DNA from: Psilocybe azurescens
Taxonomy: Eukaryota; Basidiomycota; Agaricomycetes; Agaricales; Agrocybaceae
Direction of reading: 5' to 3'
NCBI GenBank assembly: GCA_023853785.1
Contig: JAJIRX010000292.1
Location: 49,752-113,751, forward strand
Length of the DNA: 64,000 nucleotides
Shown: positions 19,875 through 57,717 of the stretch, piece after piece
Layout: each line of letters opens with the position of its first letter
Position numbering within the stretch: position 1 is the first letter of the stretch
The notes under the pieces: model-generated
What the model saw: only the letters and a program-made list of their open reading frames with translations
Database searches by the model: none
Told to the model about the DNA's origin: nothing
Made by a program: the position numbers and the translations under genes

Positions 19875-21060
19875 AAGGTCTTTACACTCCCCACAGGTAC
19901 TGATTGGAGATTTCGACTGGTTCCAACCAGAATTTTATTTGGCAGTGTCCCTGCCAAATTAGCAGGAAAATGTCCAAATTTTTCCAATTGGAACCACCAG
20001 TACTGACTGATTCCACTGCTAACAAGTCCAACCAAAATCTGACCAGAATCTGACTGGAATCTGACTGGAATCCAAGTGGAATTCATCAAATTTAAAACCC
20101 AATTAGACCTAATTCTGAGTGGAATCCGAGTGGTACCAAGCAGAACCATATTATATCAGCATACTATTTACAGCTCAGCAAGTAATAACACAAAAGTATA
20201 CATAGATCTCAACAGTTTGTGACAAATTTGGTATTGTTAGAATTGTAAAATTGAGGAGAATATGTTTATGTAATATTTATATAAAATTGAAAATTTTCTG
20301 GTAAAGAAATACCTATTTTCATATAAATCTGTGCTTATATAATCTAAATTTCTTGAATAAAATTAATCTTTGTATTCCATTAATTTCTATTATTGAAACA
20401 CTATTAATATATAGCTAACAGAGTGCTATTTTGTTGCAAAAAGTAGTTTACAATATCCATATATATTCAAATTTACAGTATTTTGTATATTGAACATGCT
20501 GACATAATATTCAGACAATAGTGTAATTACAAGTGCATTGCCCTCAATTTTCTGATCATTTTGATATATAATATGTGGGTATAGCTTCAGAGAAAGTGCC
20601 AGAATATATTATTGGGTGTTGTAAAGAATGGTATATAATTCATAAAATGTTAAGAATACCACAAGCAATAATAGTGTAGATGGTAATGTGTGTATAGAAT
20701 TAATATATATAAAGCTGTTGGTTCAATTCCTGTTGAGTATATTTTATAATTTTGCATTTATTACAAATATCATGTGATCTGAATTGATTACTTAAGCACT
20801 TATGTAAGAAATATTATGTAATACTGACTAAGTATACAATATCATGTGATTTCAATACATTATTTATAAGCTTATGTAAGCAATTATTATGTAATGCTGA
20901 CTATGCATTATATTATACACTGATTAAGTATATTATGAGAAATTCTGACTGGATTCCAACCAGTTCCAAGTGAGTCCAAGTAGATTTCAACTGGTTCTGA
21001 TCGGTTCCGACTGGGTCCAAGTGGTTCCGACCAGTACCTGTGGGGCACTGTAAAGTACTG
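19875..21060 (-). mobile_element. non-autonomous DNA element, CAGTACTTT family, copy 1 (8-bp TSD AATTTTGC)
   Basis: Exact 8-bp duplications AATTTTGC flank it (19867-19874 and 21061-21068). Ends in element orientation are CAGTACTTTACAG and GTAAAGACCTT; the longer imperfect inverted repeat also shares CCCCACAGGTACTG. Subterminal arrays of TCTGACTGGAA-like units of about 10-11 bp fill about 19,900-20,130 and, inverted, about 20,940-21,040. The middle is AT-rich with a 72-bp tandem duplication. No transposase is present. Removing it with one TSD leaves AAATTCACAGAACCAGA, in which the host relic reads through as KFTEPEDY, an independent check of the boundaries. Confidence 0.8.
20769..20915. repeat. 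two tandem copies of a 72-bp AT-rich unit
   Basis: Both units start ATCATGTGAT (20769 and 20841) and share TTATGTAAG, ATTATGTAAT and CTGACTA at the same spacing, with about 20 percent divergence. It lies in the middle of the element at 19875-21060 and does not code. Confidence 0.6.
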
Positions 21061-21600
21061 AATTTTGCTGCCGTGAATGCTTTGTGTATTATTTTTTGTA
21101 GAACATGGCTAGTGCATTGTGATTGAGCAGTGTTAGCTGTGGCTGTGGACTCATGAGCTGCCGGAAAGACCCAAGAGCACCTTCATTCTCATTATTTGTG
21201 GCTGGCAGCCATGCAAATTCTCTCTCCTCTGCAGTTGCTTCATCAATTAACCCTCCTCAGCAAATTCAGATGTGAATCGCTCCCAAGTATTTGCTGCACC
21301 AGTGAAAAAGCCACAAGCAAATCCTTAAAGTAAGGCAGTTGTTGGGCAACTTCAAGCACCTTGTTAACAACAGCAGAATTCTCTCATTTATCACCATTCA
21401 GAGATGCAGTCAAGTGTGAGGAGGAAGCTCCAAATGAGAATATCAGGGTTATCAATGATTTTTGCATGTGGTGATATACATGGTGATGAAGAGGACCAAG
21501 GTCAAGCATGTTCTGATCTTTGTCTCTGGATGTTGAACTACATTGTGTGTGATTTGATATATAAATCAAAAACCAAAACACAAACCAGAGAGGAATGGTC

Positions 21601-22665
21601 TAGACTAGATAAGACAACTCTCTCCCTGTTGAGTTAAAGTGAGGGCTGGCTTGGCCACTAGATTCTGAAGATATATGTAGTCTGAGGAGGACAGGGACGT
21701 ATGAAGGAGGAGGAATGGATGAGGGAATATAAAATGCCCTTGAGTATTTACTGGGAGGAAGCAACCTGACTTGATTAGGGTAGAACAGTGTGAACAAAGA
21801 GTGATGACTGTGGAGGGGCCAAATGACTAGATAAATCGTGAGGGATTGATCACGGGGACAGGAGTGAGAATGTAGTCTTGATCCTAGTGTGCTTTAATTG
21901 AGTCTGCAGTGTCTGCAAAGCTAGAAGTAAAGCCTGCTGATGGAGTAATGGCTTGAGCGGCCTGGAGTGATAGATGGTGAAGGATTGTGCGATATTTTGA
22001 TCCAAACCTCGAACAGAGCAGTGAGGTGAATGAGGGATGACTAGGGTGATCAAAGGTGATGACCTAAGCGATATTCTTCAGCCAAAAAAATCAAACAACG
22101 CAGAGAAGCAGATAAAGGATGTCTGGAGCGATGGATGAAGATAACAACAAGACCAAAATTGCTGAATAAAATATTCTGGAGCAACTGAAGCGATGGGAAG
22201 TTGAAGATCTTGATGTAGAGGAAGAATGAAGGGTCTGGAGGATGGTAGGATCAAAATGAACTGGACAAATTGCTCTGGGATGTGAGAGCGTGAATGGAGG
22301 GTTATCTGCTACAACCCTTGAAGGATGTCTTGATGATCTGGAATAACTGTTGAATTTTGTGCTGAATACTGATAGAGATTGATTGAATGCGTGCTGGAGT
22401 GCTGGAACTGAGTACTTGATAACTTGAAATCTTTGCTGTGAAGAAAGTTGGGGCTTGTAACTTCCTTGTATTCCAAGTGATACTAATACATGGTTTATAT
22501 ACCAGAGAACATAGAAAAATATTTAAAAGAGATCAAGTGTCCAAACTATACTAATCTTTCTGTAGAATGACACCCAGTAGTCCCATCTGTCAACTACATA
22601 CAATAGATTGAAGGCTGATGGAGTTTAGGAGTGAAAAATAGAAGGATGAGTAAGTAAGTAACATA
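21601..22665. other. AT-rich stretch without a recognisable gene
   Basis: No open frame with a known domain. Recurrent purine-rich phrases (GGAGCGATGGATGAAG-like) and a TATA-like GGTTTATATACCAGAG at about 22,492 might belong to a degenerate LTR, but no ends or target duplication could be found. It is continuous in character with 23,112-23,750. Confidence 0.4.
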
Positions 22666-24621: not shown

Positions 24622-26210
24622 CAGTAGCTCAAAAAACTGTCCCAATGTTTGGCACTTTCTCACTAATTGTTTAATAACTTGGGAAATAAATTATTTAAAA
24701 GTCTGAAAATATTATATGTTATAGTTTAACATGTGACTAACATATTTCTCACCAAAGTCACATGATTTTAACAAAAACTGATTAAGTAATGGAATTTATA
24801 AAATAATAAAACATTGGGACAGTTTTTTGACTCTCTATCTAGTACTTAGTATGGCCTCCCTTTGCCTTGATAACAGCCTCCATTCTTCTTGGCATGCTTT
24901 CTATAAGCCTTTGGCATGTTTCTGAAGGTATTTCAGTCCATTCCTTTGCCAATCTCTCCCACAATTCAAATGCTCCTTTGGGTGGTGTCTCATAGGTGTT
25001 CATTTGCCTTTTGAGGTAAACCCAAAGGTGTTCAATGGGGTTAGGGGATTGGGGTGGCCACTCCATAACTTCAACATCATTGGCCAAAACCATTCTTGAG
25101 CTTTTTGGAGGTGTGTTTGGGGTCATTATCCTGCTGAAAAATCCTTTTCCTCTCTGCCATCTCCAAGTTGTCAAAGCTTTCATCCACCCCATGCTCCAAA
25201 ATTTCACAGTATTGGTCTGCATTCATCTTCCCTCAACCTCAGTGAGTGTTTCAACACCATTCCACCCCATACAACCCCATACCATGAGATTGTTGCCCCT
25301 CCATGCTTGACAGTTGGTAATGTTGTTCTATCTGAGATTGCTTCACCCTTGGGTTTCCATGTATAGACCCTTCCATCTGAGCCAATCCTGTTGATTTTTG
25401 TTTCATCTGACCAGAGTACTCTTTTCCAATCCTCCACAGTCCAGCCAACATGATTCTGGGCAAATTTTAGGCGTTTTGACGGTGGATAGCCTTGAGGAGG
25501 GGCGTTTTGATTTAACAACAGAGCAGAAGTTGTTTTCTTTGAGGGAATTTCTGACTGTTTGGGCACAAGCAGGAGAGGGAATAGCATCATTGATGAAGTG
25601 TGTTACCTGGACAGCATTGTCCAGCTTTCCTGTTTTGATTTGACAAAAAGGACCTGTTTATCCTTGGGAGTAAGCTTGGAGGGACGTCCACCTTTGTTGT
25701 TTTGAGGGTTTTCTTTGTTGGCATCCACTTCCTCTTGATTCTTCCAACAGTAGACTTTCCCAAACCAGTTTTAGACTCTATTTGACAAAGAGAATAGCCC
25801 TCTTCAAGAAGATTGAGGACAGAATTGTACTGAGAAGGTGTTGCAGGCTTCATGATGTGGTAATTAAAGAGAAAGATGGTTGAACTTGAATTCAACATTG
25901 CAAATGTGTACAAATAGTGTCACATGACCTTGTTTAATTTTCTCACAATTTATACAAAGCAATTTGGCTTTCTACAAGCATGTAAAGCTATTATTTTATA
26001 GGGTCAAAAACTGTCCCAATGTTTTATTATTTTGTAAATTCCATTACTTAATCAGTTTTTGTTAAAATCATGTGACCTTGGTGAGAAATATGTTAGTCAC
26101 ATGTTAAACTATAACATATAGTATTTGCAGACTTTTAAATAATTTATTTCCCAAGTTATTAAACAATTAGTGAGAAAGTGCCAAACATTGGGACAGTTTT
26201 TGAGCTACTG
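24622..26210 (-). mobile_element. Tc1/mariner transposon 1 (TA target duplication)
   Basis: 1,589 bp bounded by TA on each side (24620-24621 and 26211-26212), inserted in LINE ORF1. The ends are CAGTAGCTCAAAAA and TTTTTGAGCTACTG. The inverted repeats run for about 210 bp and contain two copies of the ACTGTCCCAATGTT motif, one at the outer end and one, inverted, at the inner edge: a long-TIR layout with duplicated transposase sites. The inside is filled by one transposase gene on the minus strand. Confidence 0.92.
24839..25853 (-). pseudogene. Tc1-family (DD34E) transposase, frameshifted
   Basis: Start MKPATPSQYNSVLNLLEEGY at 25853, with the helix-turn-helix SLCQIESKTGLGKSTVGRIK. The catalytic residues are visible: VLWSDETKINRIG (first Asp), the QQDNDPKHTSK equivalent near 25,140 (second Asp; here in a shifted frame as FSRIMTPNTPPK) and PNPIEHLWVYLKR (Glu). 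The spacing read in the intact frame of the second copy is 34 residues, hence DD34E. The span is 1,015 nt, not a multiple of three. At least two frame changes (after KRKWMPTKK and around LFLLKNPFPL on the other strand) make it non-functional as read. Confidence 0.88.
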
Positions 26211-27809: not shown

Positions 27810-30570
27810 CCACCAAAGATGCCAGCCTCATCCTAACTCACATGGTGCATGCGGGGTGGGCCAAGGGACTCAAGACTAGCGTCATTGCCTTTGATGTCAC
27901 TCAGTTCTTCCCGTCACTCAACCATGAGGTCCTCATGGCTATCCTCTGGAAGTTAGGGTTTAGCGACAACATCGTTAAATTCTTCTCTCATTACTTGGTC
28001 AGTTGCTCTATGCAGTATGCATGGGGTGACTTTATCTCTGACCTTTGCCAGGCAGATGTAGGAGTGGGACAGGGCGGAGCCCTGTCCCCAGTCCTTCTGC
28101 TCTCTACCTTACCCTCATCATAAGGCTCTTCGAGCTGGATCCACTCACTCGTGGGTGCTTCCTGCTCTCATATGTCGACAATGGCACTCTTGTGGTGGAA
28201 TCGAAGTCCCTTCTCAACAACTGTGAAGCCCTTAAACGGGCTTATGGTGTCATATTCGAGCTGTTCAAGAAATTTGGACTTGCACTGGAGCACAACAAGT
28301 CTGAAGTATTCCACTTCGACCGGTCGCACTCCAAAGACAATCCCCCTGTCGATCTGGGCTATGCACCATATACCGGCGCAACCCCTCTCAAACCCAAGCT
28401 GTACTGGCGGTACTTGGGCTTTTATTTTGATTGCAAGCTCACTTTTACTGAGCATGTCCGATATTACTCTACCAAGGCTTTGTTGACCGTTAAGGCAATG
28501 AAGATGCTTGGTAGTTCTACTCGTGGTCTACACCCTGTACAGAAGCGTGTCCTCTACCATGCCTGCATACTTCCCATAGTCACATATGGCTTTCGTCTCT
28601 GGTACTTCGCAGCTGCACACTGCAAAGGTGCCCTTCACCATCTCTCTATAATGCAGCGATCTGCTGCATTGTGGATTACCGGTGCATTCCGCACTTCTCC
28701 GACTGGTGGAGTAGAGGCCCTTGTGGGCCTCCCCCCATCAATCTCCTCCTTCGCCGTCTATCTGAGCGCGCCCGATTATCAGTTTGCCACCCTGACCCCG
28801 ACTCATCCAGTGAGAGCCTTCCTCTCTCGCTTCAATTGCAGCACTATCGTGCCGCATCCTTCCCTCTCGATTCAGACTATGTCTGAACCAGAGATCTTTT
28901 GCACTAGTGGGACTCTCTTTGAGTCCGACACTAATGTCCTTGCTCTGACGGAGATTCTTCTCCTGATGAACCCGCTCTCCAGACCGGGTGTTCGACTTAT
29001 GGACCGCTTTGCGGACAAGGTCCATTTCGATGACTGCAAGATTTCTCGTGGTGATGCCGACAAGGAATTGAAGCAGCACACCAAACATCTTGATAAGCTC
29101 TGGGACAAAATCTCAGAGAATATTGGGACTTACTATGTGGGGACAGATGCGAAGTCTGCCCCTCTCAGGACGGTATCAAGCCATTGCGGCCTCCATCCTG
29201 TTTAGCGGCGGAGTCGAAGCGCTGGCGTGCCCGACATGTCGCAGGCAAAGTCACCACCCCTGATGCAGAGCTATATCCCATCCGTTCTGCAATTGTCTAT
29301 GCGACTTCGTGTGATGACTGCACAGACATCTTCATCTTCACAGACTCGATGGCATCTGCCCATTGAGCTGTCGATCCTTCTATCCACTCTGGACAAGGCC
29401 ACTCTGTGGCTGTCTGCGAGGCTCTTCAGACTTGGTTCACCCATAAGGATGGCCAGTCAATCACCTTTGTGTACGTCCCCTTGTGCTTGCAGTGGGACTT
29501 GTATTACAAAGCACACGAGTACACAACCGAACTCAAAGTCGCACTGGGTCCACACCCAGCTACATCATTTGACAGCCTGTGCATGCAGGCTGCCCTCTCT
29601 GCGGCACTTCTTGGAATGTCTTATTCCAGAACCCCAAATATCGAGGGCTGGAACTTTCTCCACCTCAAGACCGTCGATGGGGCGGTCGCCCAACCTGGGG
29701 GCAAAGATAACCTCTGGATTCATTTCACGAACATGAGCTCCCCGCAGCTCTACGCACGCATGTGCCGGTGTATTCTGAATCATGCGCCCATCGGGTCTTA
29801 TTATTCCCGGTTTAATCTCATTGATGGTGAAACATTGTGCCCGTGTGGGTGTCCTTGGGAAACCTGCACGCATATCCTCACCTGTAAAAGGACTTATCGT
29901 CCTCCCAGGGCTTGCGAGCTTAGGCAGCCAACCACGTTGTGCTACCTTCACTCATTCTTGGAGATGAACCCGAAAGTGTTCGCCTTCCGCTCGGCTCCCC
30001 CTTGCGGGCGTTGGTTGACAACTGACGTTGGGCATTGTGGGGGAGTCCTTGTTCAGCGGTCTTGATTGGCATGGGCCAATTATCCGCTTGGCTCGTGGTT
30101 GTTTGGCTATGCTGGGGTAGGCCATTTTGGTGGGGCTTGTTCGCCACTCGCTTTGGTGTTCGACTCACTACCCTCACCCAGGACCTGGGCCACGTTACAA
30201 ATGGCGTCAAGTATGTGGGAACCAGGGAGAGTTGGTACTGCTAGTCTCGGCTGCTGGACCTGGGCGCCCTCCGCCCTTGTTAGTTATCTCCTGCTGGTGC
30301 TGCATCTGCTTCACCCCAGGCTTCCTAAGGCTAGGGTCACTTCTAGTCTATATCCCGCGAGGTTGTTCTTTGTAGATAGGTTTTCTTTTCCTTCTCTGCA
30401 TCGAGGTTGGCATTATATCCCTACAGTAGCTACCCCATTATGTGTTCAGCATGGTCATTTATCGTAGGCTTCAGTGTTTCCAACGGTCTCCTAGTAGCTT
30501 CGGCGAACAGTTTCTTAGTAGTTACCTGGTTGGGCATTTGTACTTAGCGACTGGACTGCTTTCGCACACT
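27810..30570 (+). mobile_element. LINE copy A, 5'-truncated, plus strand, no poly-A
   Basis: Covers the RT domain from ILTHMV through RNase H and the 3' UTR. RT: VIAFDVTQFFPSLNHEV (A motif), GQGGALSPV (B), LLSYVDNGTLVV (C; the YVDD of other copies is YVDN here). RNase H: CTDIFIFTDSMASAH and TFVYVPLCLQWDLYY. C-terminal zinc knuckle CPCGCPWETCTHILTC. The ORF2 stop is TGA at 30063-30065. The copy ends inside the 3' UTR tail at about 30,570, against copy B in opposite orientation. Frameshifts at about 28,120, 29,205 and 29,400 break the frame. Confidence 0.88.
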
Positions 30571-33500
30571 GGCCGCCTGCATGCGCAGGCTGTCAAATGA
30601 TGTAGCTGGGCATGGACCCAGTGCAACTTTGAGTTCAGTTGCGTACTCGTGTGCTTTGTAATGCAAGTCCCACTGCAAGCACAAGGGGACGTACACAAAG
30701 GTGATTGACTGGCCATCCTTATGGGTGAACCATGTCTGAAGAGCCTCACAGACAGCCACAGAGTGGCCCTGTCCAGAGTGGATAGATGGGTCAACAGCTC
30801 GACGGGCTGAAGCCACCGAGTCTGTGAATATGAAAATGTCTGTGCAGTCATCACGTGAGATCGCATTGACGATTGCAGAACGAATGGCATATAGCTCCGC
30901 ATCAGGGGCGGTGACTTTGCCTGCGACATGTTGGGCGCGTCAGTGCTCGACTCCACCGCTGAACAGGATGGAGGCCGCAATGGCTTGATACCATCCTGAG
31001 AGGGGCAGACTCGCATCCGTCCCCGCATAATATGTTCCGATGTTCTCTGAGATTTTGTCCCAGAGCTTATCGAGGTGTTTGGTGTGTTGCTTCAATTCCT
31101 TGTCGGCATTGCCGTGAGAAATCTTGCAGTCATTGAAATGGACTTGGTCTGCAAAGCGGTCCATGAGTCAAACACCCAGTCTGGAGAGCAGGTTCATCGG
31201 GAGTAGAGTCTCCATCAGTGCAAGGACATTAGTGTCAGACTCAAAAAGAGTCCCACTAGTGCGGAAGATCTCTGGTTCAGAAATAGTCTGAATCGAGAGA
31301 GAAGGGTGTGGCGCGATAGTGCCGCAGTTGAAGCGAGAGAGGAATGCTCTCACAGGATGAGTCAGGGTCAGGGTGGCAAACCGATAATCGGCTCGCTCAG
31401 ATAGATGGCAAAGAAGAAGATTGATAGGGGGAGGCCCACAAGGGCCTCCACTCCACCAGTCGGAGAGGTGTGGAATGCACCAGTGATCCACAATGCAGTG
31501 GAACGCTGCATTGTAGAGAGATGATGAAGGGCCCCTTTGCAGCGAGCAGCTGCAAAGTACCACAGACAAAAGCCATACATAACTATAGGAAGTACGCAGG
31601 CGCAATAGAGGATACGCTTTTGGACAGGGCGCAGACCTTGAGTAGAGCTACCAAGCATCTTCATTGCCTTAACGGTCGACAAACCCTTGGTAGAGTAGTA
31701 TCGGACATGCTCAGTAAAAGTGAGCTTGCGATCAAAGTAGAAACCCAAGTACCGCCAATACAGCTTGGGTTTGAGAGGGGTTGTGCCGGTGTACGGAGCA
31801 TAGCCCAGATCGACAGGGGGATTGTCTTTGGAGTGTGAGCAGTCGAAGTGGAATACTTCAGACTTCTCGTGCTCCAGGGCGAGTCCAAATTTCTTGAACA
31901 GCTCGAATATGACACCATAAGCCTGTTTAAGGGCTTCACAGTTGTTGAGAAGGGACTTGATTCCACCACCAGGGTGCCATCATCGACATATGAAAGCAGG
32001 AAACACCCACGAGTGAGTGGATCCAGCTTGAAAAGCCTCATAATGAGGGTAAGGTAGAGAGCAGAGAGGACAGGGGACAGGGCTCCGCCCTGTCCCACTC
32101 CTACATCTGCCTGGCGGAGGTCGGAGATGAAGTCACCCCACGCATACTGCATAGAGCGACCGACCAGATAATGGGAGAAGAATTTAACAACATTGTCACT
32201 AAACCCCAACTTCCGAAGGATAGCCATGAGAACCTCATGGTTGAGCGACGGGAAGAACTGAGCGACATCAAAGGCAATGACGCTAGTCTTGAGTCCCTTG
32301 GCCCACCCAGCACGCACCATGTGCGTCAGGACCGGCATCTTTGATGGATCTTTGATGGATCCCTCTGATCTGATTTGGGTGGAAGACGTCTGAAGCGACG
32401 CCGTCAAACTGAATGCGATTGGAAAGCATTTTCTCAATCAATTTACCAATGGTATTCAGGAGGACAATTGGGCTGAATGCCTTTGGAGCAGAGTAGGAGG
32501 GCTTGTTCGGTTTCGGGATGATAACCGACATGGACTCCTTGAAGTGCTTAGGCCAGTGCCCAACCCTAAGGCAGGCATTGGCAAGCGCAAGTAAGACGGT
32601 GAAGACGTGGGTGGGCCCCGCATCAACATCTTGAGATGAGACCACTTAATGTGGTCCGGCCCTGGGGCCGACACGTTGGAGCAGGAGGCAAGAGCCTCCC
32701 GCATCTCAAGTGCAGAGAATGGGACCCATCCCGAATGGGCATGTCAGGGATGGAATCAAGAATATCGATGTCGAACGCGCGGTCTGACACCGAGTTGTAA
32801 GTGTTGTGGAGAGCATCCCACAACTGAGGAAGGGCGTGGCAAGGCTGCCCCTGATATTGAATAGCCTCGCATGGTGGTAACTTGTGCTGTTGGACCCACG
32901 ACATGAGGTCCCATGTGCGCTTGTTGGTGATGGAAATTTCCGTGATTCTGGAATCAAAGAAAACCCATTTGGCGTTTTTAACCGCCTTTCGATAAAGCTT
33001 CCAGTCCTCTGGGAGACCATGTTCCCGGTAAGCCTGAAGCGCAATTGAGCACTCATCCGTCCACCACGGTTTTGAGTGCCTCATAATAGTGACCTCCCTG
33101 GAGCAGGTTTCCCAAGCTGCAGAGAACGAATCAGCAATGGCTTGTGCCACTCGCGTCAATCTGGTCAGGTGTGTTGAGAGGAGTGTGTTCATCCACTTTC
33201 ATAGCAAACTCTCCCTCAATGACTCTGACAAAGCGGATTTGCTCCTCTTTGTTGGCTTTGAGAGCTCTGCGGGGCATGGCCCCAGAATCGGCAGAGATCG
33301 ATAAAGTGGTAGTGAGCAGGATATGATCTGACTTCGCCCATGGTGTTGTGCAACTGAGTGATCTCGCCATCAGGGTCTGGTCCGGTTGCACAAATATCAA
33401 GTCTATCACTGTGGAGCCGAAAGCCTTGGATGCGAGGGTAAAAGGTTGTCCCTGGGTTCACAAAAGGAGCCCGTTGCAAGCCTAATTCTGATGTAGTGTT

Positions 33501-34206: not shown

Positions 34207-34434
34207 TGTTAAAGGTGGCAAGTTCGGAAATGTGTGAGACAGCTGTGGTCCGAGTTTCGTGGTTACGCTGTATCAGACAGAGTGGCAATGAGGGCCTGAA
34301 TGTTAGAATTGATATTTCAGACTCAGACTGATGGGATCACATGACAGACACGAATGTAGCTGTAGTACACCTCTTGAACTCTTTAGTTACTTACTCACTT
34401 CAGACTTCAGGCAAGTAGATAGCTTAGTTCAGTC
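34207..34434. repeat. two Copia LTR fragments joined head to head
   Basis: 34207-34300 matches the 3' half of the 249-bp LTR at 42021-42269 in one orientation (TGTTAAAGGTGG...AGGGCCTGAA). 34301-34434 matches its 5' half in the other orientation (TGTTAGAATTGATATTTC...TTAGTTCAG). The left edge is LINE copy B and the right edge is the poly-T of LINE copy C. This is a rearranged remnant, not a simple LTR. Confidence 0.7.
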
Positions 34435-45600: not shown

Positions 45601-46696
45601 CAGAAGCACTATGGGCCTGAATGCCTTTGGGGCAGAGTAGGAGGGCTTGTTCGGTTTCGGGATGATAACCGACATGGACTCCTTGAATTGCTTAGGCCAG
45701 TGCCCAACTCTAAGGCAGACATTGGGAGCGAGAGTAAGACTGTGAAGACATGGGTAGGCCCACACATCAACATCTTGAGATGAGACCACTTGATGTGGTC
45801 CGGCCCTGGAGCCGACACATTGGAGCAGGAGGCCAAGACCTCTCACATCTCAAGTGCAGAGAAGGGGACCCACCCCCAGACGGGCATGTCGGGGATGGAA
45901 TCAAGTATATCGATGTTGAACGGACGGTCCAACGCCAAGTTGTAAGTGTTGTGGAGTGCGTCCCACAACTGAGGAAGAGCGTGACAAGGCTGCCCTTGAT
46001 ATTGAATAGCCTCGCACAAGGAGGCCGCCCGTCCGAAAACGGGGACAGTGGCCTTGTGGGTTGCTGTTTAGGCGGCATAGCTCGGTTGAAACAAGCTAGT
46101 ACTACCGATGGTGGTAATGCTTGTTAGAAATAGACAATAATGCACAAATCAGTAGCTATACTGATGAGTAACAATAGAGTCAAATCTCAAATGCGCAACA
46201 ATGACAAGTATGAGTGAAAATAGTAAATTGCTTCTGTAGACTCCAAATCCTGTTCTATTGTCTTTGTTTCCTCAGACATAGTAGGAATACTGGTCTTTTA
46301 CATGGCTAAGTGTCTAAAAATGGCGAGGCGTGACTATAGGTGTCCACAATATTGCGTCAAAACACCAAACCTATAATTACGTGACAAATTATATATCACC
46401 GGAACCGTCTCAACGAGGGGATTCCGGATCAGTGATCAGAATTTGAATAACTTTACTCTACAAAAAGTTATTAACAGAACAGTGTGCAAAAACACCGAAA
46501 AGAGCGAATTCTAACTAAGTGTCCATTTGTACAAGTCCAAATATCAAGTGTAGAACATTAGAAACAAAGTGTTTAATCACAAAAACTAACAATGCTGGGG
46601 GTGGTTATCCAAGTAAAGCTTTGTGTAGAACATTTGCGACGATGAGCAGAAATTTCTCACAGTGGATACGTGGCAGTACCGGAACAAGAAAGGATG
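42688..46696 (-). mobile_element. LINE copy D, minus strand, internally deleted
   Basis: Poly-T and 3' UTR at 42688, then RNase H, RT and the RT-proximal region to about 46,018 (SVIIPKPNKPSYSAPKAF near 45,700; FDVAQFFPSLNHE altered by a frameshift; LLSYVDDGTLVV intact). At about 46,018 it jumps directly into ORF1 start and 5' UTR sequence. The copy therefore lacks the endonuclease and nearly all of ORF1 (about 2.5 kb). The 5' end is the usual CATCCTTTCTTG at 46696. A solo LTR sits in the 5' UTR. The deletion could be recombination between copies or a template jump. Confidence 0.85.
46122..46591. repeat. solo LTR, 470 bp, TSD ATGCT
   Basis: Begins TGTTAGAAATAGACAAT and ends CACAAAAACTAACA. 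Flanked by ATGCT (46117-46121 and 46592-46596). Removing it restores GGTAATGCTGGGGGTGG, the LINE 5' UTR sequence present in four other copies. No internal retroelement sequence remains. It is a third LTR type in this window. Confidence 0.92.
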
Positions 46697-47711
46697 CCAA
46701 CTACCCATCTTGGTGTGGTGAAATGCAAGCTTGGCTTCGTACTCAGTGCATTTGGCGCATCGTTTCTGGTCAATCCAAGGCCCCCAAGTTGTCCTCACCA
46801 CCCAAGGACACTGAGAAGGCCGCACTCGATGCTTGGAACACCAAATCAGACAAGGCAGCTGGCTACATCTATCTGGCTGTTGAGGAGAATCAGAAGATTC
46901 ATTTTGCTTCTATTTCAGACAATCCTGTCGCTATGTGGGCTGCCCTTGCTTCGGTACACCTCCAGAAGCGTCCTGGTGCACGGTTCAATGCTTATGATGA
47001 CCTGTTCTCAATCAGGAAGCAGGAGGATGAATCTCTGCAGTTACTGATGAACAGAGTGGACACTGCCATTCACAGAATTCAAGATCTTCGGCCTAAGGAC
47101 TTCACTCTCACCAATCTAGATGATGAGCTGGCAAGCATGACACTCATTAGAGCACTTCCTGACGAGTTCAGCGGCTTTGCTTTGTCTCTCCTGCTCATGG
47201 ACAAGCTTGAAAAGGCTACCATTCAACAGGCCTTTGTCACAGAGGAGTCTCAACGTCGCCATCGCGCTTCTGCTGCTCCCAATGTTGCCTCTGCACTTGC
47301 AGCATCTTCATCTTGCATTTCTGCACCCCTACACTTCTCTGCACGTTTTGCGGCATGAACAACCACATGCAAGCTGAATGCAGCTGATATCTTGACTCTC
47401 AAGAGAAAGCGAAGGAAAGCGTCCGCACTAGGTACAAGAACAGAGGTCAGAAGGCCAGGAAAGCGGAGGAGACATCTGACAAGGATCCCAAGCTAGAATT
47501 TGCTGGAAATGCAAGTGCACTGTCTACATCCGCTTCAAACACCTCCCAAATCGATGCTAACTTTGATTGGCTCACAGACACAGATGCCACTAGTCATATG
47601 ACACCACATCAGCGCATGGATAAGCAATTACACACCCTACATCGTCCCAGTCAAGTTAGCAGACAACACCATTGTCTATTCAGCTGGTTTTGGGAGTGTG
47701 ATGATCAATCT
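46697..47711 (+). pseudogene. Copia gag and protease start
   Basis: The gag part is open from the LINE boundary to about 47,358: WCGEMQAWLRTQCIWRIVSG, DKAAGYIYLAVEENQKIHFA, then the UBN2-type helical region (KRPGARFNAYDDLFSIRKQE, RVDTAIHRIQDLRP, LASMTLIRALPDEFSG). One frame over is a CCHC knuckle CTFCGMNNHMQAEC. Then FDWLTDTDATSHMTPH shows the aspartic protease site, with Asp where Gly is expected in D-T/S-G. A frameshift at about 47,320 and a stop after AECS break it. Truncated on the right by LINE copy E. Confidence 0.88.
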
Positions 47712-48382
47712 GGTATCGGTTTGCCACCTTGACCCCGACTCATCCTGTGAGAGCATTCCTCTCTCGCTTCAAATGCAGCACTATTGCACCGTACCCTTCT
47801 CTCTCGATCCAGACTATGTCTGAACCAGAGATCTTCCGCACTAGTGGGACTCTTTTTGAGTCTGATACTAATGTCCTTGCTCTGACGGAGACTCTTCTCC
47901 TGATGAACCTGCTCTCCAGACTGGGTGTTCAACTCATGGACCGCTTAGCGGACCAGGTCCATTTGATGACTGCAAGATTTCTTGTGGCGATGCCAACAAG
48001 GAATTAAAGCAGCGCACCAAACACCTCGATAAGCTCTGAGACAAGATCTCGGAGAACATCGGGACATACTATGCAGGGACAGATGCGAGTCTGCCCCTCT
48101 CAGGACGGTATCAAGCCATTGTGGCCTCCATCCTGTTCAGCGGCGGGGTCGAGTGTTGGCGCGCCTGACATGTCACAGGCAAAGTCACTGCCCCTGATGC
48201 GGAACTATATGCCATTCATTCTGCAATTGTCAATGCGACCTCGTGTGACAATTGCACAGACATCTTCATATTCACAGACTCGATGGCTTCCACCCGTCGA
48301 GCTGTTGATCCTTCTATCCACTCTGGTCAGGGCCACTCTGTGGCTGTTTGCGAGGCTCTTCAGACTTGGTTCACCCATAAGG

Positions 48383-50819
48383 GTGTACTTTACAGTGCCC
48401 CCATTTTCCGTTGGACTCCAACGGACTTTCACTGGACCCAGCCAATTCCAATGGACAGTCCATTGGACATCCAACGGATTCCGTTGGACTCCACAAAATT
48501 CCAGTACCAGTCCAGTCAGAGTCCGGCCAAATTCCGGTCAAAGTCCGGTCAAGTCACTTCAAGACAGAAAACAGGTGGACTGGCCAGACTGTCCAGTCCG
48601 TTGGACTTCCGTTGGACTTCCAGTGGACTTCCACCGGACTCTCAGCACTTAATTAGACCAGATCCAAGAGTGCTCTGTCCAGTGGAGTCCAGTGGATGTC
48701 CAGTGGATGTCCAGTGGACTGTCACTGGTTTAATTGCAGACTTGGGAGGGGAGTTAGGGACAGTAGCAGTGTTCTTGGAAGCTTTGGGAGCCATATTAAG
48801 GAAGCTAGATCACTAAGATAATACTTCAATCTTATCTTTAATTCATGTAACAATGTAATATAATATATTGAAAACTATATACTACATTATTATCTGACTT
48901 GTGTACTTTACCTCCACCCAGGAACTCCATGTGGAGTCCACCGACTCCATACAAAAGTGGTGGACTCCACATGGACTCCATCTGGAACATATGCAAATGT
49001 CCCAAAAATTATCTTTGGTAGGTGGAGTTCAGATGGACTCCAGGTGGACTCCAGGTGGACTCCAAACAATTCCACTTAAGTCCAACTGGAGTCCAGGTAG
49101 TGTCCAGGTGGAGTTCAATTAGACACCACCTGGAGTCCATCTGGACTCTAGTTGGAGTTCCCAACTTTAACTTCATGGAATAGAATTCAATTGGATTCCA
49201 ACTGAAATATATTAATGTTTCAATGTTAATGTAAATTCATATAAGTGTAATATAATATATTAACAACTATCTATTACATTGTTACATACTGCGAGATCCA
49301 TCATTAAAAAATTAAAAAACAAAAACAAAAACATAAATTTAAAAAGAAAAATGGGGATGGAGGTACATACCTGGGTCAGATGAACAAATAAACATATAAA
49401 TGTAAAAGAAAAATAAGAAAAAAACACGAAAAAAACACGAAAAAAAGGGAAAACCTTAAAAAAAGGGGGGCGGGAGGGTCATCGTCGTGGGGTGCGTCGT
49501 GTCAGGTGTACGTGGCCATACGGCGGTGTCATCCTACACCCCGCTGTATCCGTCGTCGTTGTCTTCGCTGTCGCCGTCTCGCCCTTGCCATCTCACCCTC
49601 GCCCTTGCCGTCTCGCCCTTGCCCTTGCCCCACCCTTGCCGTCTTCGCCCTCACCCTTGCCCCACCTCCGCCATCTCGCCCTCACCCCCGCTGTCTCGCC
49701 CTCACCTTCGCCCGTCTTGCCCCCCCTTGCCCTGCCCCCACCGTCTTCGCCCTCATCCTTGCCCTCATCCTCGCCCCTCGCCCCCGTCTCGTCCTCACCC
49801 CCACCATCTCGCCTTACCCTCGCTGTCTCGCCCCTCGCCCTCGCTCTCGCCTCACCGTCTTGCCCCCGCCGTCTTGCCCTCACCCCCGCCGTCTTGCCCT
49901 CACCCCCGCCCGTCTTGCCCTCACCCCCGCCGTCTTGCCCTCACCCCCGCCGTCTTGCCCCTGCCGTCTTGCCCTCACCGTCTTGCCCTCACTGTCTTGC
50001 CCCGCTGTCTTGCCCCTGCCATCTTGCCCCCGCCCTCACCCACACCCCTTGCTCTCACCGTCTCGCCCCGCCGTCTCGCACCACCCTCGCTGTGCCCGTC
50101 GCTGTCGCTGTCTCACCGCACCGTCTTGCCCCCACCCTCGCTGTCACTGTCGCCGTCCTCGCTGTCGCCCTTCAGCGGTCATGGTCGTGTTCGTCCTCCG
50201 TCAGCGTCGGGTTGGCTTTCGCCTGGCTCTGACCGACAAGGCGGTAGTGGTGGTGGAAGAAGAAGTGAGGCCGGAATCAACAACGGACCGACGTGGCATC
50301 AACATGTCACGCGCGTTGTTGTTTGGCCCATGCCGAGCAGTGCCGAGAATTTCGGGCGGCATCACTATGTATTTAACTAATTTTATTATTTTCCATAAGC
50401 CTTTGTGGCTCAGTTGGTTTATCCCACTTGCGTTCGGCATTCTCCGATGCCCGAGTTCAATTCTCCTTTATGTCTTTTTTTTTCTATACTAGTATAAATT
50501 ATAATAAAATGACATCCGTTGGACTTCCATTGGAATTCCGTTGGACTTGTCCGCTGGAATTCCAATGGTCATGTCCGGTGGGATTCCGATGGACTTCCAT
50601 TGGACTTCCGTTGGTCCTGTCCGGTCATTTCCAGTGGACAGTCCGCCCGGACAGTCCGTTGGACTTGTAGTCCGGTCGGACATTCACCGGAATCTCACCG
50701 GAATCTCACCGGAAAATTTCAGCTGTCCTAGACCAGAAAAATTGTCATTCTGAATATAGAAAGTCCGACGGAGTCCGACCAGAGTCTGACCAAAAAATGG
50801 GGGCCGTGTAAAGACCTCC
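48383..50819 (+). mobile_element. non-autonomous DNA element, CAGTACTTT family, copy 2 (8-bp TSD CCATAAGG)
   Basis: 2,437 bp flanked by CCATAAGG (48375-48382, 50820-50827), within the RNase H part of LINE copy E. Ends are GTGTACTTTACAG and TGTAAAGACCTC; the inverted repeat also shares GCCCCCATTTT. Subterminal arrays of TTCCGTTGGACT / TCCAATGGAC units of about 10 bp lie at 48,410-48,720 and 50,510-50,680. Inside are an AT-rich block (49,240-49,450) also found in copies 3 and 4, a GC-rich minisatellite (49,550-50,170), and a conserved block (50,195-50,345). A second inner set of TGTACTTTACC plus TGGACTCC units (from 48,900) may be a nested or internally duplicated end. No transposase. Confidence 0.82.
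49550..50170. repeat. GC/CT-rich minisatellite, unit around GCCCTCACCCCCGCCGTCTT
   Basis: Degenerate tandem units of about 18-20 bp built from CCGTCTTGCCC and CTCACCCCCG. All three plus frames stay open for 240-330 codons and a minus frame for about 96, giving Pro/Ser/Leu/His/Arg-rich translations with no domain. Strand composition is strongly skewed: nearly all pyrimidine on plus. I treat it as non-coding. Confidence 0.8.
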
Positions 50820-52251: not shown

Positions 52252-53039
52252 GCATTGAATCTGATCGCTCTATCTACAGTAGCTCAAAAAACTGTCCCAA
52301 TATTTGGCACTTTCTCACTAATTGTTTAATAACTTGGGAAATAAATTATGTAAAAGTCTGAAAATATTATATGTTATAGTTTAACATGTGAATAACATAT
52401 TTCTTACCAAGGTCACATGATTATAACAAAAACTGATTAAGTAATGGAATTTACAAAATAATAAAACATTGGGACAGTTTTTGACTCTATAAAATAATAG
52501 CTTTACATGCTTGTAGAAACCCAAATTGCTTGGTATAAATTGTGAGAAAATTAAACAAGGTCATGTGACACTATTTGTACACATTTGCAATGTTGAATTC
52601 AAGTTCAACCATCTTTCTCTTTAACCACCACATCATGAAGCTTGCAACACCTTCTCAGTACAATTCTGTCCTCAATCTTCTTGAAAAGTGCTATTCTCTT
52701 TGTCAAATAGAGTCTAAAACTGGTTTGGGAAAGTCTACTGTTGGAAGAATCAAGAGGGAAGTGGATGCCAACAAAGAAAACCCCCAAAACAATAAAGGTG
52801 GATGTCCTTCCAAGCTTACTCCCATGGATAAACAGGTCCTTTTTCATCAAATCAAAACAGGAAAGCTGGACAATGCTGTCCAGGCAACAAACTTCATCAA
52901 TGATGCTATTCCCTCTCCTGTTTGTTTGCAAACAGTCAGAAATGCCCTCAAAGAAAACAACTTCCACTCTGTTGTTAAATCAAAACGGCCCTCCTCAAGG
53001 CTATCCACCGTCAAAACACCTAAAATTTGCCCAAAATCA

Positions 53040-55100
53040 CAGTACTTTACCATCCCCTACACAGTCCATATGGACTCCAGTGGACTCCAGTGGACTCCAG
53101 TGGACTCCACTGGACTTGCCTATATACTGAGTGTAAAAGGTAAACAGAGTCCAGTGGACTCCAGTGGATTCCACTGCACTTTAGTAGATCTTATACTATA
53201 CATTGAATATGGACTAAAATAACTGTAGTCCACTGGAGTCCACTGGAGTCCACTGGACTTGACACAGTAAATAAATTCAATCTTAACATAAATTCAGATT
53301 AGTGGAATAAAGTATATTAATAACTATTTAATACATTACTACATATCTACATGTGAGGGCCAAGACAAAAGGAAGAAAAAGATAATAAAATAAAAAATAA
53401 AAAAGGGGGAGCAGGAGCAGTACTTTACCATCGTGACGTGTCGTCCGTCGGGTCGTCCGTCGGGTCATCGGTACCAGCGTCCGTATCCATCGCTGTCGCA
53501 GCCGCCGTACCCATCCTTGTCGCTGTTGCAGCCGCCGTCCGCTCCTCGTCCTCGCTCCTCGTCCCTGCCGTCCGCATCGGTCCTCGTCCCTGTCGCAGCC
53601 GCCGTCCGCGTCTGCATCCTCGTCCCTGCCGTCCTCGTCCCTGCCGTCCCCGTCCCTGCCGTCCTCATCCCTGCCGTCCCCGTCCCTGCCGTCCCCGTCC
53701 CTGTTGTCCCCGTCCCTGTTGTCCCCGTCCGTCCCCGTCCGCGTTGTCGTTGTCGTCCCTGTTGTCCCCGTCCGTCCCCCGTCCGGCGTTGTCGTTGTCG
53801 TCCCTGTCGTCCCCGTCCGTCCCCGTCCGCGTCGTCGTCGTCGTCCCTGTCGTCCCCGTCCGTCTTCGTCGCTGTCGCGTCCGCGTCGTCCCTGCTGTCC
53901 GCTGTCGGTTCCTCGTCCCTGTCGCAGCCGCCGTCCCCGTCCGCGTTGTCGTCCCTGTCGTCCCCGTCCCTGTCGCATCTACGTCGTCGTCCCTGTCGCG
54001 TCCATGTCCGCGTCGTCGTCCCCCGCCGTCCGCGTCTTCGTCCCCCGCCGTCCCGCGTTGTCGTCCCCGCCGTCTGCGTTGTTGTCCCTGCTGTCCACGT
54101 TGTCGTCTCTGCCGTCCGGCGTTGTCGCTCTCTGCCGTCTGCGACATCATCGTCCCTGTCGCAGCCGCCGTCCCCGTCCGCATCGTCGTCCCTGTCGTCC
54201 CCGTCCGTCGTGTCGTCGTCGCTGTCGCGTCCACGTCCACGTCGTTGTCGTTGTCGCTGTCGTCCTCGTCCCTGTCGCGTCCACGTCCGCGTCCTCGTCC
54301 TCGTCCTCGTCCCTGCCGTCCGCGTCCATCGTCGTCCCTGTCGCAGCCGCCGTCCGTGTCTCGCTCTGCGTCCTCGTCCTCGTCCTCGGTCGTCAACCAC
54401 TGTCGCGTCGGGTTGGCTGTCGCCTGGCTCCGACCGACGAGGTGGTGGTGGTGGTAGTCGGAAGAAAGGTTGGGGTCGTCCATTTGATGGTTGTCGTGCC
54501 GATCGGCCGATGCCGGGCACGTGTGAGCGTCACATGTTCTTGTGAAATTTGACCCCGCCGGACTGAACAAAATACAAAATTGTATCCATAGGGAGGCATT
54601 GCTCCCTAGTGTATTTAACTATTGTTTCATTTAACTGTCATTTATTTCCATTGATTTTAGTCTTTTATTTTTGCAATTAATATTAATAACTAATGATCAT
54701 ACTTTGGATATTGTGTTAATTATTGCATCCAGTGGACTCCAGTGGATTCAACTGGACTCCACTGGACTCCACTGGACTGTGCTAATAAATATATTATTTG
54801 TTGTTGTTCAGTGAATATTTAAGCCCCAGTCCAGTGGACTCCAGTGGACTCCAGTGGACTTGACTGGACTCATAATCCACTGGACTGAGACTGGACTGAA
54901 AATTTGGCAGGAGTCCAGTGCGAGTCCAGTGGACTCCAGTGGACTGCAGTCCAGTTCCAGTCCAGTGGACTGGACAATCTGTCAGCCAGTTTGGCTGGAC
55001 AGAGAGTCCAGTGGAGTCCAGTGGAGTCCACTGGAGTCCACTGGAGTCCACTGGAGTCCACTGGAGTCCATATGGATTGTGTGGGGAAAGGAAAGACCTC
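53040..55100 (+). mobile_element. non-autonomous DNA element, CAGTACTTT family, copy 3 (8-bp TSD CAAAATCA)
   Basis: 2,061 bp flanked by CAAAATCA (53032-53039, 55101-55108). Ends are CAGTACTTTACCATCCCC and GGAAAGACCTC; the inverted repeat also shares ACACA and TCCATATGGACTCC. Subterminal arrays of a 10-bp unit TCCAGTGGAC are almost perfect (53,070-53,110, 53,145-53,260, 54,730-54,780, 54,825-54,960, and the inverted GGAGTCCACT run at 55,008-55,070). Internal order: AT-rich block (53,285-53,430), a second CAGTACTTTACCATC (53,424), minisatellite (53,440-54,400), conserved block (54,400-54,545). No transposase. It disrupts the mariner 2 transposase. Confidence 0.85.
53440..54400. repeat. GC-rich minisatellite built on CGTCGTCCCTGTCGTCC-type units
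   Basis: About 960 bp of degenerate tandem units made of GTCC(C/T)(C/G)T trinucleotide-phased steps. Because the period is close to a multiple of three and TA-stops are rare, two plus frames run 339-370 codons and two minus frames 301-351 codons. The translations are Pro/Ser/Val/Arg or Asp/Gly/Arg/Thr low complexity with no domain. Confidence 0.82.
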
Positions 55101-55924
55101 CAAAATCATGTTGGCTGGACTGTGGAGGATTGGAAAGAGTACTCTGGTCAGATGAAACAAAAATCAACAGGATTGGCTCAGATGGAAGGGTCTATACATG
55201 GAAACCCAAGGGTGAAGCAATCTCAGATAGAACAACATTACTAACTGTCAAGCATGGAGGGGGCAACAATCTCATGGTATGGGGTTGTATGGGGTGGAAT
55301 GGTGTTAGAACACTTACTGAGGTTGAGGAGAAGATGAATGCAGACCAATACTGTGAAATTTTGGAGCATAGGGTGGATGAAAGCTTTGACAACTTGGAGA
55401 TGGCAGAGGGGAAAAGGATTTTTCAGCAGGATAATGACCCCAAACACACCTCCAAAAAGCTCAAGAATGGTTTTTGGCCAATGATGTTGAAGTTATGGAG
55501 TGGCCACCCCAATCCCCTAATCTCAACCCCATTGAACACCTTTGGGTTTACCTCAAAAGGCAAATGAACACCTATGAGACACCACCCAAAGGAACATTTG
55601 AATTGTGGGAGAGATTGGCAAAGGAATGGACTGAAATACCTTCAGAAACATGCCAAAGGCTTATAGAAAGCATGCCAAGAAGAATGGAGGCTGTTATCAA
55701 GGCAAAAGGAGGCCATACTAAGTACTAGATAGAGAGTCAAAAACTGTCCCAATGCTCTATTATTTTGTAAATTCCATTACTTAATCAGTTTTTGTTATAA
55801 TCATGTGACCTTGGTGAGAAATATGTTATTCACATGTTAAACTATAACATATAATATTTTCAGACTTTTACATAATTTATTTCCCAAGTTATTAAACAAT
55901 TAGTGAGAAAGTGCCAAACATTGG

Positions 55925-57717
55925 CAGTACTTTTCACTCCCCACATATTCCCTAGGACTGGAGGGATTGAGAAAGAGAGTGAAGGGAATAGAGGGAATAG
56001 AGGGAATTGAAGAGGGAATGAAGGAATTGGAGAGGGAATGGAGGGGAATGATGGGAATGAAGGGGAATAGAGTTATTTATAGCCAATACAGTAATAAAGT
56101 GGAATTCCCACGGCTTGAAGCTGAGTAAAACAATTTCCCACACCTTTAGGCTGAATATAAAAATAGATTTACACAGTTACCACTACTATCATACATCTAT
56201 TATACACTGCTTATATAATCCTTATATCATACACCTACTGTACACTGCTTATATAATCTACCCTGTATCATCGGATTTCAACTAGAATATTTCAATCTAT
56301 CAATCTTAGTGTAAATTCATGAGTGCAATATAATATATTAATAACTATATACTACATTATTATCTACATGCAAAGTCCATTGTAACAAAATAAAATAAAA
56401 ATAAAAAACATAACAGAGTAAAAGATGGGCGGGAGGGTATATACTTGGGTTAAATGAACAAACAAACACATAGATGTAAAAGAAAATGAGAGAACAAAAG
56501 AAAAAAGTGAACAAAAAAATTTTAAAAAAAGGGTGGCGGACGGGTGGTGGTATCGGTCATACATGCCGCCGTCGTGGGTGTGGTATGCATCCGCCGTATG
56601 CCGTCATCCTTGCGGCCGTTGTGTCCGTTGTGGCCGTCATGCATGGCCATCGTACTGGTGTCGTCTTTGCAGCTGTCGTAGGTGCTGTACGTCAGTGGTG
56701 TACTCAGTGTCGTGTGTGCCGTCGTTGTGGCCGCCGTGTGTGTTGTATGTGTCGCGGTATGTGTCCTGCATGTTGTGGTACATGTCCTATGTGTTGTATG
56801 TGTTGTCATCGTGGCCGCCGTGCGTGCGTGGTTGTACATGTCGTCATTGTCGTCTTTGCAGCCATCGTGGGTACCGTACATCGGTGGCGTACTCGGTGTC
56901 ATTGTCATGGCCGCCGTGCGTGTCGTACGTGTCGTGGTACACATCCTGCGTGTTGTTGTTGTCATCCCTACCTGCCGTGTCTGCTTTCGTATGTACCGTT
57001 GTCGACCGTACATGTTGCGTGTGTCACACGTGCGGTACGTACACATACGCCATCGGTCTGTATGAGAAAGAGGGGGAGTGTTAGTGGCGGCGGTGGGTGG
57101 GGTTCGTGACTTACCTGGTGTCGCGGCCGCATTCACGTCGCCTTGTTACCTGCTCGCATCCCCTCCCTCATTCCACCCTCGTTCCAGTGTCATTGTTGTC
57201 GTATATGGAGCCATCGCCATCGCCGTCATACCGTATGTGTGTCCGGAGTTGTCGTCATTGTACACGGACCTGTCATTGGTCGGTGGTGCCGCAATGCATG
57301 TCGGGTTGGGTTGGCGAGTGCCTGGCTCCGACCGACAATGGCAAGGTGGTGAGGGCACGCACGACGGCAGCAGCGGGGTGGTGGTGGTTAGAAGAAGAGG
57401 TGGGGTGGTTGGAGTAACCAACGGACCGATGTGGCAACCAAAAGTCACGCACGTGACATTGTTCACAGTTGCCGAGAATTGCCGAGCGATAACATTAAAT
57501 TTTAAGTCCGTTTATGGTTCCGTTCCGGGCTATTCCGTTTTGTAAATGGATTCCATTCAATTCCACTCGCGGAATCCGCCATTCCACCGGAATTGATATT
57601 AAATAAAATCGCAGGGCCTTGTGCCATATTTTTGCTCTCATTCTGCAGCTGAATAGCGGATTCCGCAGCGGACTCCGGCGGACTCCAGCCGGAATATGTG
57701 GGGACACAAAAGCCCTC
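55925..57717 (+). mobile_element. non-autonomous DNA element, CAGTACTTT family, copy 4 (8-bp TSD AACATTGG)
   Basis: 1,793 bp flanked by AACATTGG (55917-55924, 57718-57725), inside the right inverted repeat of mariner 2. Ends are CAGTACTTTTCACTCCCC and GGACACAAAAGCCCTC; the inverted repeat also shares CCCCACATATTCC. The left subterminal array is different again (GAGGGAATA-type units, 55,960-56,070); the right end has GGCGGACTCCAGCCGGAATA units. Inside: AT-rich block (56,325-56,540), minisatellite (56,560-57,060) and the conserved block (57,295-57,460). No transposase. Confidence 0.82.
56560..57060. repeat. GT/GC-rich minisatellite with GCCGCCGTGTGTGT-type units
   Basis: Degenerate units of CGTGTCGT, GTCGTCATC and GGCCGCCGTGCGTGT type, less regular than the two other minisatellites. 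Open in three plus frames and one minus frame for 127-207 codons (Val/Cys/Arg or Thr/His-rich). No domain; treated as non-coding. Confidence 0.75.

Follow-up and report, generated by a model that had tools for sequence, protein, structure and literature searches.

The window analysed here, a stretch of 64,000 nucleotides from the fungus Psilocybe azurescens, contains four insertions with similar terminal sequences, each flanked by an 8-bp duplication and each with its own arrays of short repeats next to the ends. This raises the question of which enzyme moves such elements and of how related tips came to be combined with such different arrays.

Four non-autonomous transposons and their insertion sites

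The four insertions (e1–e4; Table 1) are non-autonomous transposons with related tips and differing end arrays. Exact 8-bp target duplications flank all four, and a scan of the window for tip pairs with at most one mismatch in the 8-bp duplication returned these elements only. A first-pass annotation had already given their positions and perfect duplications, which are confirmed except at the end of e2, placed there at 50819; this base is the first of the duplication and the element ends at 50818. The insertion of e3 and e4 is corroborated by empty sites. Both lie in another element, e3 in its coding part and e4 in its right inverted repeat, and a second copy of this host element has a single copy of the target at both sites. 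The host element has Pfam matches below cut-off only (HTH_Tnp_Tc3_2, E 0.029; DDE_3, E 0.0031, the latter in the other copy).

Table 1. Positions of the four insertions, their internal parts and the host element of e3 and e4 in the window
Feature	Position	Strand	Description
e1, non-autonomous element	19875..21060	-	1186 bp; tips CAGTACTTTACAGTGCCCC / AAGGTCTTTACACTCCCC; 8-bp duplication AATTTTGC
e2, non-autonomous element	48383..50818	+	2436 bp; tips GTGTACTTTACAGTGCCCC / GAGGTCTTTACACGGCCCC; duplication CCATAAGG; array TCC-N3-GGA, period 11
L077-lineage 5' tip with its subterminal stretch (GTGTACTTTACCTCCACCC), within e2	48901..49118	+	84% identity to L077 over 218 bp
e2 GC-rich tandem-repeat core and block behind it, common to e3 and e4	49480..50261 (approximate limits)	.	
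e3, non-autonomous element	53040..55100	+	2061 bp; tips CAGTACTTTACCATCCCC / GAGGTCTTTCCTTTCCCC; duplication CAAAATCA; array TCCAGTGGAC, period 10
e3 GC-rich tandem-repeat core and shared block behind it	53430..54466 (approximate limits)	.	
e4, non-autonomous element	55925..57717	+	1793 bp; tips CAGTACTTTTCACTCCCC / GAGGGCTTTTGTGTCCCC; duplication AACATTGG; 5' array GAGGGAATA; 3' array with GGA-N1-TCC
e4 GC-rich repeat core and related block behind it	56550..57345 (approximate limits)	.	
Host element of e3 and e4	52277..57744	.	TA-flanked; Tc1/mariner-like by eye
Second copy of the host element	24622..26210	.	95–97% identity; paralogous sites empty of e3 and e4

The GC-rich internal cores differ from element to element. 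Their long open frames were considered as a possible cargo gene and rejected, since the frames are open on both strands and consist of low-complexity repeats, and the one frame scanned gave no Pfam match. At two loci elsewhere in the genome (L071 and L072) the core sits upstream of the putative transposase gene described below, so that a promoter or leader seems likelier there than a cargo gene. Near 50400, e2 has a stretch resembling a tRNA, which neither ARAGORN (bacterial settings) nor Rfam supported.

The tips and duplications recur across the genome

In the 70 Mb genome, exact 5' tips were found 357 times for the CAG types and 170 and 133 times for the GTGT types, against 4, 0 and 0 for the controls. 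Elsewhere in the genome 63 tip pairs were detected, 20 of which were read: nine have an exact 8-bp duplication, four an 8-bp duplication with one mismatch, three an exact 9-bp duplication and four none, the closest of 380 mismatched control pairings having two mismatches. In all, 13 of the 20 pairs show at most one mismatch in 8 bp. The combination of shared tips with a duplication of fixed length (8 bp, or 9 bp in 3 of 20) is that of DDE cut-and-paste elements. One locus, L069, with 7.5 kb between its tips, was rejected as an autonomous element; its length is due to retrotransposon frames, Gypsy-like by eye, and it has no target duplication.

Matching ends flank CxC5/CxC6 genes of separate lineages

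The window itself contains no visible transposase, as had been noted, but in the wider genome a candidate is found in the CxC5/CxC6 protein (PF18718 and PF18721). The longer coding relatives that had been suggested as a target of the search exist, 6.4–7.8 kb in size and several with a GC-rich tandem core; in those examined, the gene is of the CxC5/CxC6 type. Seven loci chosen by CxC5 score, blind to their ends, all have a tip 1.9–2.2 kb from the gene, and these ends match the e1, e2, e3 and e4 types and two further types. The e1 5' tip is identical to that of the transposase locus L081/L122 (C662), with three differences in the first 40 bp; the 3' ends of the two are 70% alike over about 300 bp, and the 5' arrays behind the tip could not be aligned over 60 bp. 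The e2 lineage is represented by the transposase locus L078/L123/L125 (C900), that of e3 by L072 and L079, and that of e4 by L080/L124 (C308).

Transposase identity is 82–92% within lineages and 37–62% between them. The four insertions had been taken for one family; instead, each matches a separate lineage, and the transposases of these four lineages are 40–54% identical to one another. This fits the co-evolution of ends with different transposases that the annotation had offered as one explanation.

CxC5/CxC6 proteins as probable transposases

The CxC5/CxC6 protein, hitherto labelled only as a KDZ- or Copia-associated accessory, is the probable transposase of this group. One search yielded 599 relatives, and in all 60 scanned with Pfam both CxC5 and CxC6 were found, the putative catalytic half being left without a Pfam family. 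For this unannotated C-terminal half, structure models predict an integrase-like DDE fold, with an RNase H/integrase-like core in which the invariant D427, D594 and E674 (P0037 numbering) are candidate catalytic residues; the CxC6 cluster is predicted to start on the first strand of this core. The stretch D621-S-Y-H624 (P0037) resembles the [C/D](2)H transposase motif. Searches of open-licence PMC papers brought up none that assigns a transposase function to CxC5/CxC6 proteins or reports these tips.

The names of CxC5 and CxC6 refer to KDZ, and e1–e4 could accordingly be KDZ elements proper, moved by PF18758 transposases, with the CxC5/CxC6 protein as an accessory. PF18758 is very abundant in the genome (at least 170 matches), 8-bp duplications occur in some KDZ elements (a Dileera family; KDZ1), and the order of motifs (D-x2-C, H, E) is alike by eye. 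However, among the matches listed on C1–C301, a tip stands at the expected place in 9 of 23 CxC5 loci and in 0 of 27 PF18758 loci, neighbouring PF18758 exon pieces being counted once. Nine scanned pieces of L071 and L072 have no PF18758 match, the family appears in one of the 60 relatives at an E of 0.044, under the cut-off, and no PF18758 annotation occurs among 120 relatives listed. Comparison of the catalytic core with KDZ by hhalign gave a P of about 0.4 from few effective sequences, which is not significant, and the KDZ structure model (pLDDT 49.5) is too poor for a core comparison. Membership in KDZ in the Pfam sense, one of the two options first put forward, is therefore unsupported, and we regard it as very unlikely.

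The other option, hAT, has in its favour the 8-bp duplications and CAG-type tips, both of which are hAT features. The genome contains 20 PF05699 matches (best E 4.4e-11), but only one of the five on C1–C301 is near a tip, and it lies outside a complete 1163-bp element that has its own duplication. The scanned pieces of L071 and L072 gave no hAT match, and the gene-bearing relatives examined carry CxC5, which makes a hAT origin of e1–e4 extremely improbable.

The subterminal arrays differ by lineage

Most arrays consist of TCC-N3-GGA or TCC-N4-GGA dyads repeating every 10–11 bp. The 5' array of the e4 lineage is an exception. The 5' and 3' arrays of e4 are unlike each other, and the 5' array of e1 is weak. 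The end arrays do differ, as had been described, but by lineage and not by copy: rather than being rewritten in each copy, the unit is common to all copies of a lineage, which contain it in differing numbers. Among the e3-type loci read, 3 to 20 copies of TCCANTGGA lie within 450 bp of the tip, aside from L039, which has none and whose tip is cut off after about 50 bp. The inverted orientation earlier ascribed to the units has little meaning for most of them, since they are near-palindromic dyads.

We infer that the transposase binds these arrays. They might instead be slippage by-products in subterminal DNA without binding sites, their lineage differences arising by drift alone, a reading of the arrays that is compatible with the transposase assignment. 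The range of 3 to 20 units in one lineage, the GC-rich cores that also change between elements and the position of the e4 5' array outside the dyad pattern all speak for it. Nevertheless, most lineages, despite their long separation, have the TCC..GGA dyad at a pitch of 10–11 bp, which drift alone would not preserve, and we consider this account rather unlikely. Less likely still is a role of the arrays in anti-silencing or expression, like that of the motifs bound by VANC in Arabidopsis VANDAL elements. VANC targets are reported to form tandem arrays of short motifs, which vary from one related element to another as the element-encoded protein changes its target specificity (PMC5735166), much as here. 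VANC is, however, an anti-silencing protein and not a transposase, and its motifs are described for introns and an upstream region, whereas the present arrays flank both tips.

A model for transposition and divergence

The observed tips, duplications, CxC5/CxC6 relatives with matching ends, lineage divergence and variable array length within a lineage make it very probable that e1–e4 are cut-and-paste DNA transposons of one DDE group with a predicted core fold, and that a separate CxC5/CxC6 transposase moves each of them, from lineages that parted long ago. Strands would be cut and joined at the tips that the lineages have in common (CAGTACTTT or GTGTACTTT on one side, AAAGACCTC on the other), while binding of the transposase to the 10–11-bp dyad arrays would keep the lineages apart. 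A single unit may spread through an array by slippage or repair copying, so that arrays and transposases would diverge together by lineage. A broader proposal, for which we see an even chance, is that CxC5/CxC6 proteins, rather than being KDZ accessories or Copia partners, catalyse the transposition of a eukaryotic DDE superfamily of its own, with common cleavage tips, with lineages insulated by lineage-specific dyad arrays whose divergence parallels that of the transposase, and with the insertion in sporeless oyster mushroom as a member. With the transposase assignment, a large fungal protein group gains a likely function hidden by its domain names. This one genome contains six or more transposase lineages whose tips are related and whose arrays differ, a natural series in which joint change of transposase and ends is directly testable.

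Comparison with known elements

Mutator-like elements generate 8–11-bp duplications, a range that includes the lengths found here (8 bp, sometimes 9). The 25 Pfam families listed for the 60 relatives (E <= 1) include no MULE transposase profile. In hAT elements such as Ac/Ds the transposase binds subterminal repeats. Their short TIRs with such repeats and their 8-bp duplications are a likeness to the present elements, although the transposase differs from CxC5/CxC6. KDZ elements share with ours the fungal host, zinc-chelating CxC domains (a CxC-type cluster in 60/60 relatives) and, in some, the duplication length: Kyakuja has 7 bp, without TIRs, one Dileera family 8 bp, and in Cryptococcus KDZ1 has 8 bp and KDZ2/3 4–8 bp. 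The relatives of e1–e4 differ in lacking PF18758 above cut-off and significant profile similarity, and their tips of about 18 bp followed by arrays contrast with the TIRs of 139–241 bp in Cryptococcus KDZ1–3.

A close published counterpart by description is the 6,792-bp insert in MSH4 of sporeless Pleurotus ostreatus, which contains a single 739-aa CxC5/CxC6 ORF and a C-rich microsatellite cluster (PMC7641404). Its authors linked it to Copia retrotransposons, unlike the assignment made here, and the words "inverted repeat" and "duplication" are absent from their main text. In its gene and its size, and in a repeat cluster comparable to the GC-rich tandem core of several relatives, it resembles the coding elements of P. 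azurescens. The transposase assignment may account for a mushroom mutation of economic importance.

Four insertions and their host element

Four non-autonomous insertions (e1 to e4; see the table) were described in the first-pass annotation as one family with exact 8-bp duplications, and both tips and duplications are confirmed, with the end of e2 corrected from 50819 to 50818. When the window was scanned for tip pairs whose 8-bp duplication has at most one mismatch, no further insertion came up.

The insertions e3 and e4 lie in a single element that is Tc1/mariner-like by eye, with Pfam support below cut-off (HTH_Tnp_Tc3_2, E 0.029; DDE_3, E 0.0031). Its second copy carries neither insertion and has a single target copy at either site, the empty e3 site reading CAGAATCA, one change from the e3 duplication CAAAATCA, and the empty e4 site AACATTGG. 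Joining the e3 flanks gives a single 160-aa open frame spanning the insertion site. Besides e3 and e4, a copy of this Tc1-like element houses, by eye, the e4-lineage element of locus L080; a nesting preference is possible. When the e2 flanks are joined (48143-48382 and 50827 onward), one frame resembles a LINE RNase H by eye; a Pfam scan of a piece of a left-flank frame gave no match. The retrotransposon remnants comprise four RVT_1 matches (that at 28045 sub-cut-off), one RVT_2 and one copia gag.

Features of the window and elements elsewhere in the genome
Feature	Position (strand)	Length (bp)	Remarks
ORF, probable host gene	3507-4232		NLI interacting factor-like phosphatase (PF03031)
e1	19875-21060 (-)		
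Second host copy	24622-26210		95-97% identical to 52277-57744
Retrotransposon remnants	28045-42102		Pfam
Retrotransposon remnant	46519-47358		Pfam
e2	48383-50818 (+)		
GC-rich core	49480-50261		tandem repeats
Host of e3 and e4	52277-57744		TA-flanked; Tc1/mariner-like by eye
e3	53040-55100 (+)		
GC-rich core	53430-54466		tandem repeats
e4	55925-57717 (+)		
GC-rich core	56550-57345		tandem repeats
ORF	57619-58236		Copia RNase H-like by eye; no Pfam match
Retrotransposon remnant	61650-62969		Pfam
Complete relative	C124:6804-13259	6456	duplication GGCCAGTG
Complete relative	C900:50337-58174	7838	duplication ACTTTACC
Relative	C662	6547	both ends, no duplication
Relative	C308	6441	both ends, no duplication
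Tip pair	C268:5687-7769		exact 9-bp duplication
Tip pair	C201:65553-67745		exact 9-bp duplication
Tip pair	C270:49194-51758		exact 9-bp duplication

Tips and duplications across the genome

Exact tips were counted in the whole genome (70.4 Mb, 937 contigs). CAGTACTTTNNNNTSCCC matched 185+172 times against 2+2 for the reversed pattern and GAGGTCTTTNNNNTSCCC 144+153 times against 0 for the control; the GTGT tips gave 87+83 matches (e2 type) and 67+66 (L077 type), each against 0. Among the tips listed for contigs to C301, 63 of 100 CAG tips had a 3′ tip in correct orientation no more than 12 kb away, two 3′ tips each being counted with two 5′ tips. Subtypes paired consistently in these 63: ACCATC with CCTTTC (26 times) or CCTATC (3), ACAGTG with ACACTC (17), ACTGTC with ACTGTC (7), ACCATG with ACCTTC (3), and seven further pairings once each.

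Flanks were read for 20 of the 63 pairs, hand-picked to span subtypes: nine had exact 8-bp duplications, four had one mismatch, three had exact 9-bp duplications and four had none, while the best of 380 mismatched control pairings had two mismatches. The ends recur with 8-bp duplications beyond the window, a check that the annotation had proposed. At individual loci, the duplication was exact in L073 and L126 (and in L127, if the element end is set one base earlier), had one, two and four mismatches in L053, L065 and L062, respectively, and was absent from the flanks of L069; a 3′ end was looked for at L128 and not found.

A CxC5/CxC6 gene beside the tips

The annotation had suggested looking for a longer relative with a KDZ or hAT transposase. 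Longer relatives were found, with a CxC5/CxC6 gene. Two long elements with these tips, L071 and L072, chosen by length, encode CxC5 matches (E 2.9e-29 and 3.6e-21), and L071 a CxC6 match (E 9.4e-12). From the 98 CxC5 matches in the genome, one locus per class was taken from seven score classes and fetched outward from CxC5, tips being ignored in the choice; a tip lay 1.9-2.2 kb from CxC5 in all seven. The search tolerated up to three mismatches, a level where chance matches also occur. Six tips had 0-2; that of L077, with three, was accepted because an array is present and the exact tip occurs 133 times in the genome. The ends are of e1 type in L081, e2 type in L075 and L078, e3 type in L079 and e4 type in L080; L076 (like L071) and L077 have two types absent from e1 to e4.

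On contigs C1-C301, which the three 5′ tip lists cover in full, an exact tip lay 0.8-3.5 kb off on the correct side of 9 of 23 CxC5 loci and on the mirror side of 1 of 23. KDZ membership in the Pfam sense is not supported: PF18758 has at least 170 matches in the genome, and 0 of 27 loci (C1-C301, among matches listed, exon pieces counted once) had an exact tip at the expected place. Nor is hAT membership supported, as the sole hAT locus with a tip (1 of 5, C1-C301) is a coincidence: the hAT match lies outside the complete 1163-bp e1-type element (duplication CAAAACTG) of which that tip is part.

Relatives, lineages and chimeras

The insertions resemble different long elements. Over roughly its first 300 bp and its last 212 bp, e4 matches the C308 element with 88% identity. 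The C900 element matches e2 at 90% across the first 361 bp of e2 and at 80% across 111 bp near its 3′ end, and L072 matches e3 at 75-78% at both ends. Between e1 and the C662 element, which a reversed e1-like copy adjoins, a 70% match covers some 300 bp at the 3′ end; at the 5′ end nothing matches behind the common tip.

Pairwise identity over the common part is 37-62% across lineages and 82-92% inside one. In a FastTree tree, L072/L079 group with P0001 (Lyophyllum atratum), L080 with P0041 and P0065 (Flammula, Galerina), L077 with P0059 and P0027 (Flammula), this clade being adjoined by L071/L076, and L081 with P0032 and P0036; L075/L078 are separate. By this grouping at least three lineages are nearer to kin in other mushrooms than in their own genome, which suggests that they predate the species.

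From its base 519 (48901), e2 contains an L077-lineage tip and following stretch (84% identity to L077, 218 bp). Of seven further e2 loci, six align with e2 through this base and the seventh stops at 437; by exact tips, both occur together at 3 of 41 exact e2-type tips on C1-C301, that of the window included. The chimera is frequent among those loci that are most similar to e2; it may have arisen by recombination or gap repair between lineages.

Arrays and proposed mechanism

Dyads were counted over 400 bp inward from each tip. The count of TCC-N3-GGA is 14 (5′) and 9 (3′) in e2, 9 and 17 in e3, and 14 and 19 in L078 and L079; that of TCC-N4-GGA is 9 and 3 in L077 and L076, and 2 and 3 at the 3′ ends of e1 and e2 (shuffle means 0.1-0.3 throughout). 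The e4 5′ end has a single N3 dyad, its 3′ end one N5 and one N6, the only ones, and the 5′ ends of e1 and L080 none. The best lag is 10 bp in the e3 lineage, e1 5′ and e4 3′; 11 bp in e2, L076, L077, L078, L081 and e1 3′; and 14 and 20 bp in e4 5′ and L080 5′. Among e3-type loci, 3 to 20 copies of TCCANTGGA lie within 450 bp of the tip (L040/L041 and L063/L064 overlap); L039, cut off about 50 bp after its tip, has zero. The GC-rich cores vary in sequence by element, with a common block behind; by eye, L069 has one too, as do L072 and L123 in the form of other repeats.

The best reading, supported by the anatomy, is that the CxC5/CxC6 transposase cuts and joins at the common tip. The arrays would recruit, by binding, the transposase of their own lineage and so insulate lineages, and the short elements would be parasites of their respective lineage. 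Alternatively, the arrays may act in expression or anti-silencing, by analogy with VANC motifs (PMC5735166).

A known mutation may be linked to these elements. In sporeless Pleurotus ostreatus, according to PMC7641404, an insert of 6,792 bp lies in MSH4 and holds a 739-aa CxC5/CxC6 ORF together with a C-rich microsatellite cluster; its authors detected no KDZ transposon inside the expected distance and suggested a link to Copia. The insert is like the elements described here in size, CxC5/CxC6 gene and C-rich repeats, and from these features we infer that it is a member of this group.
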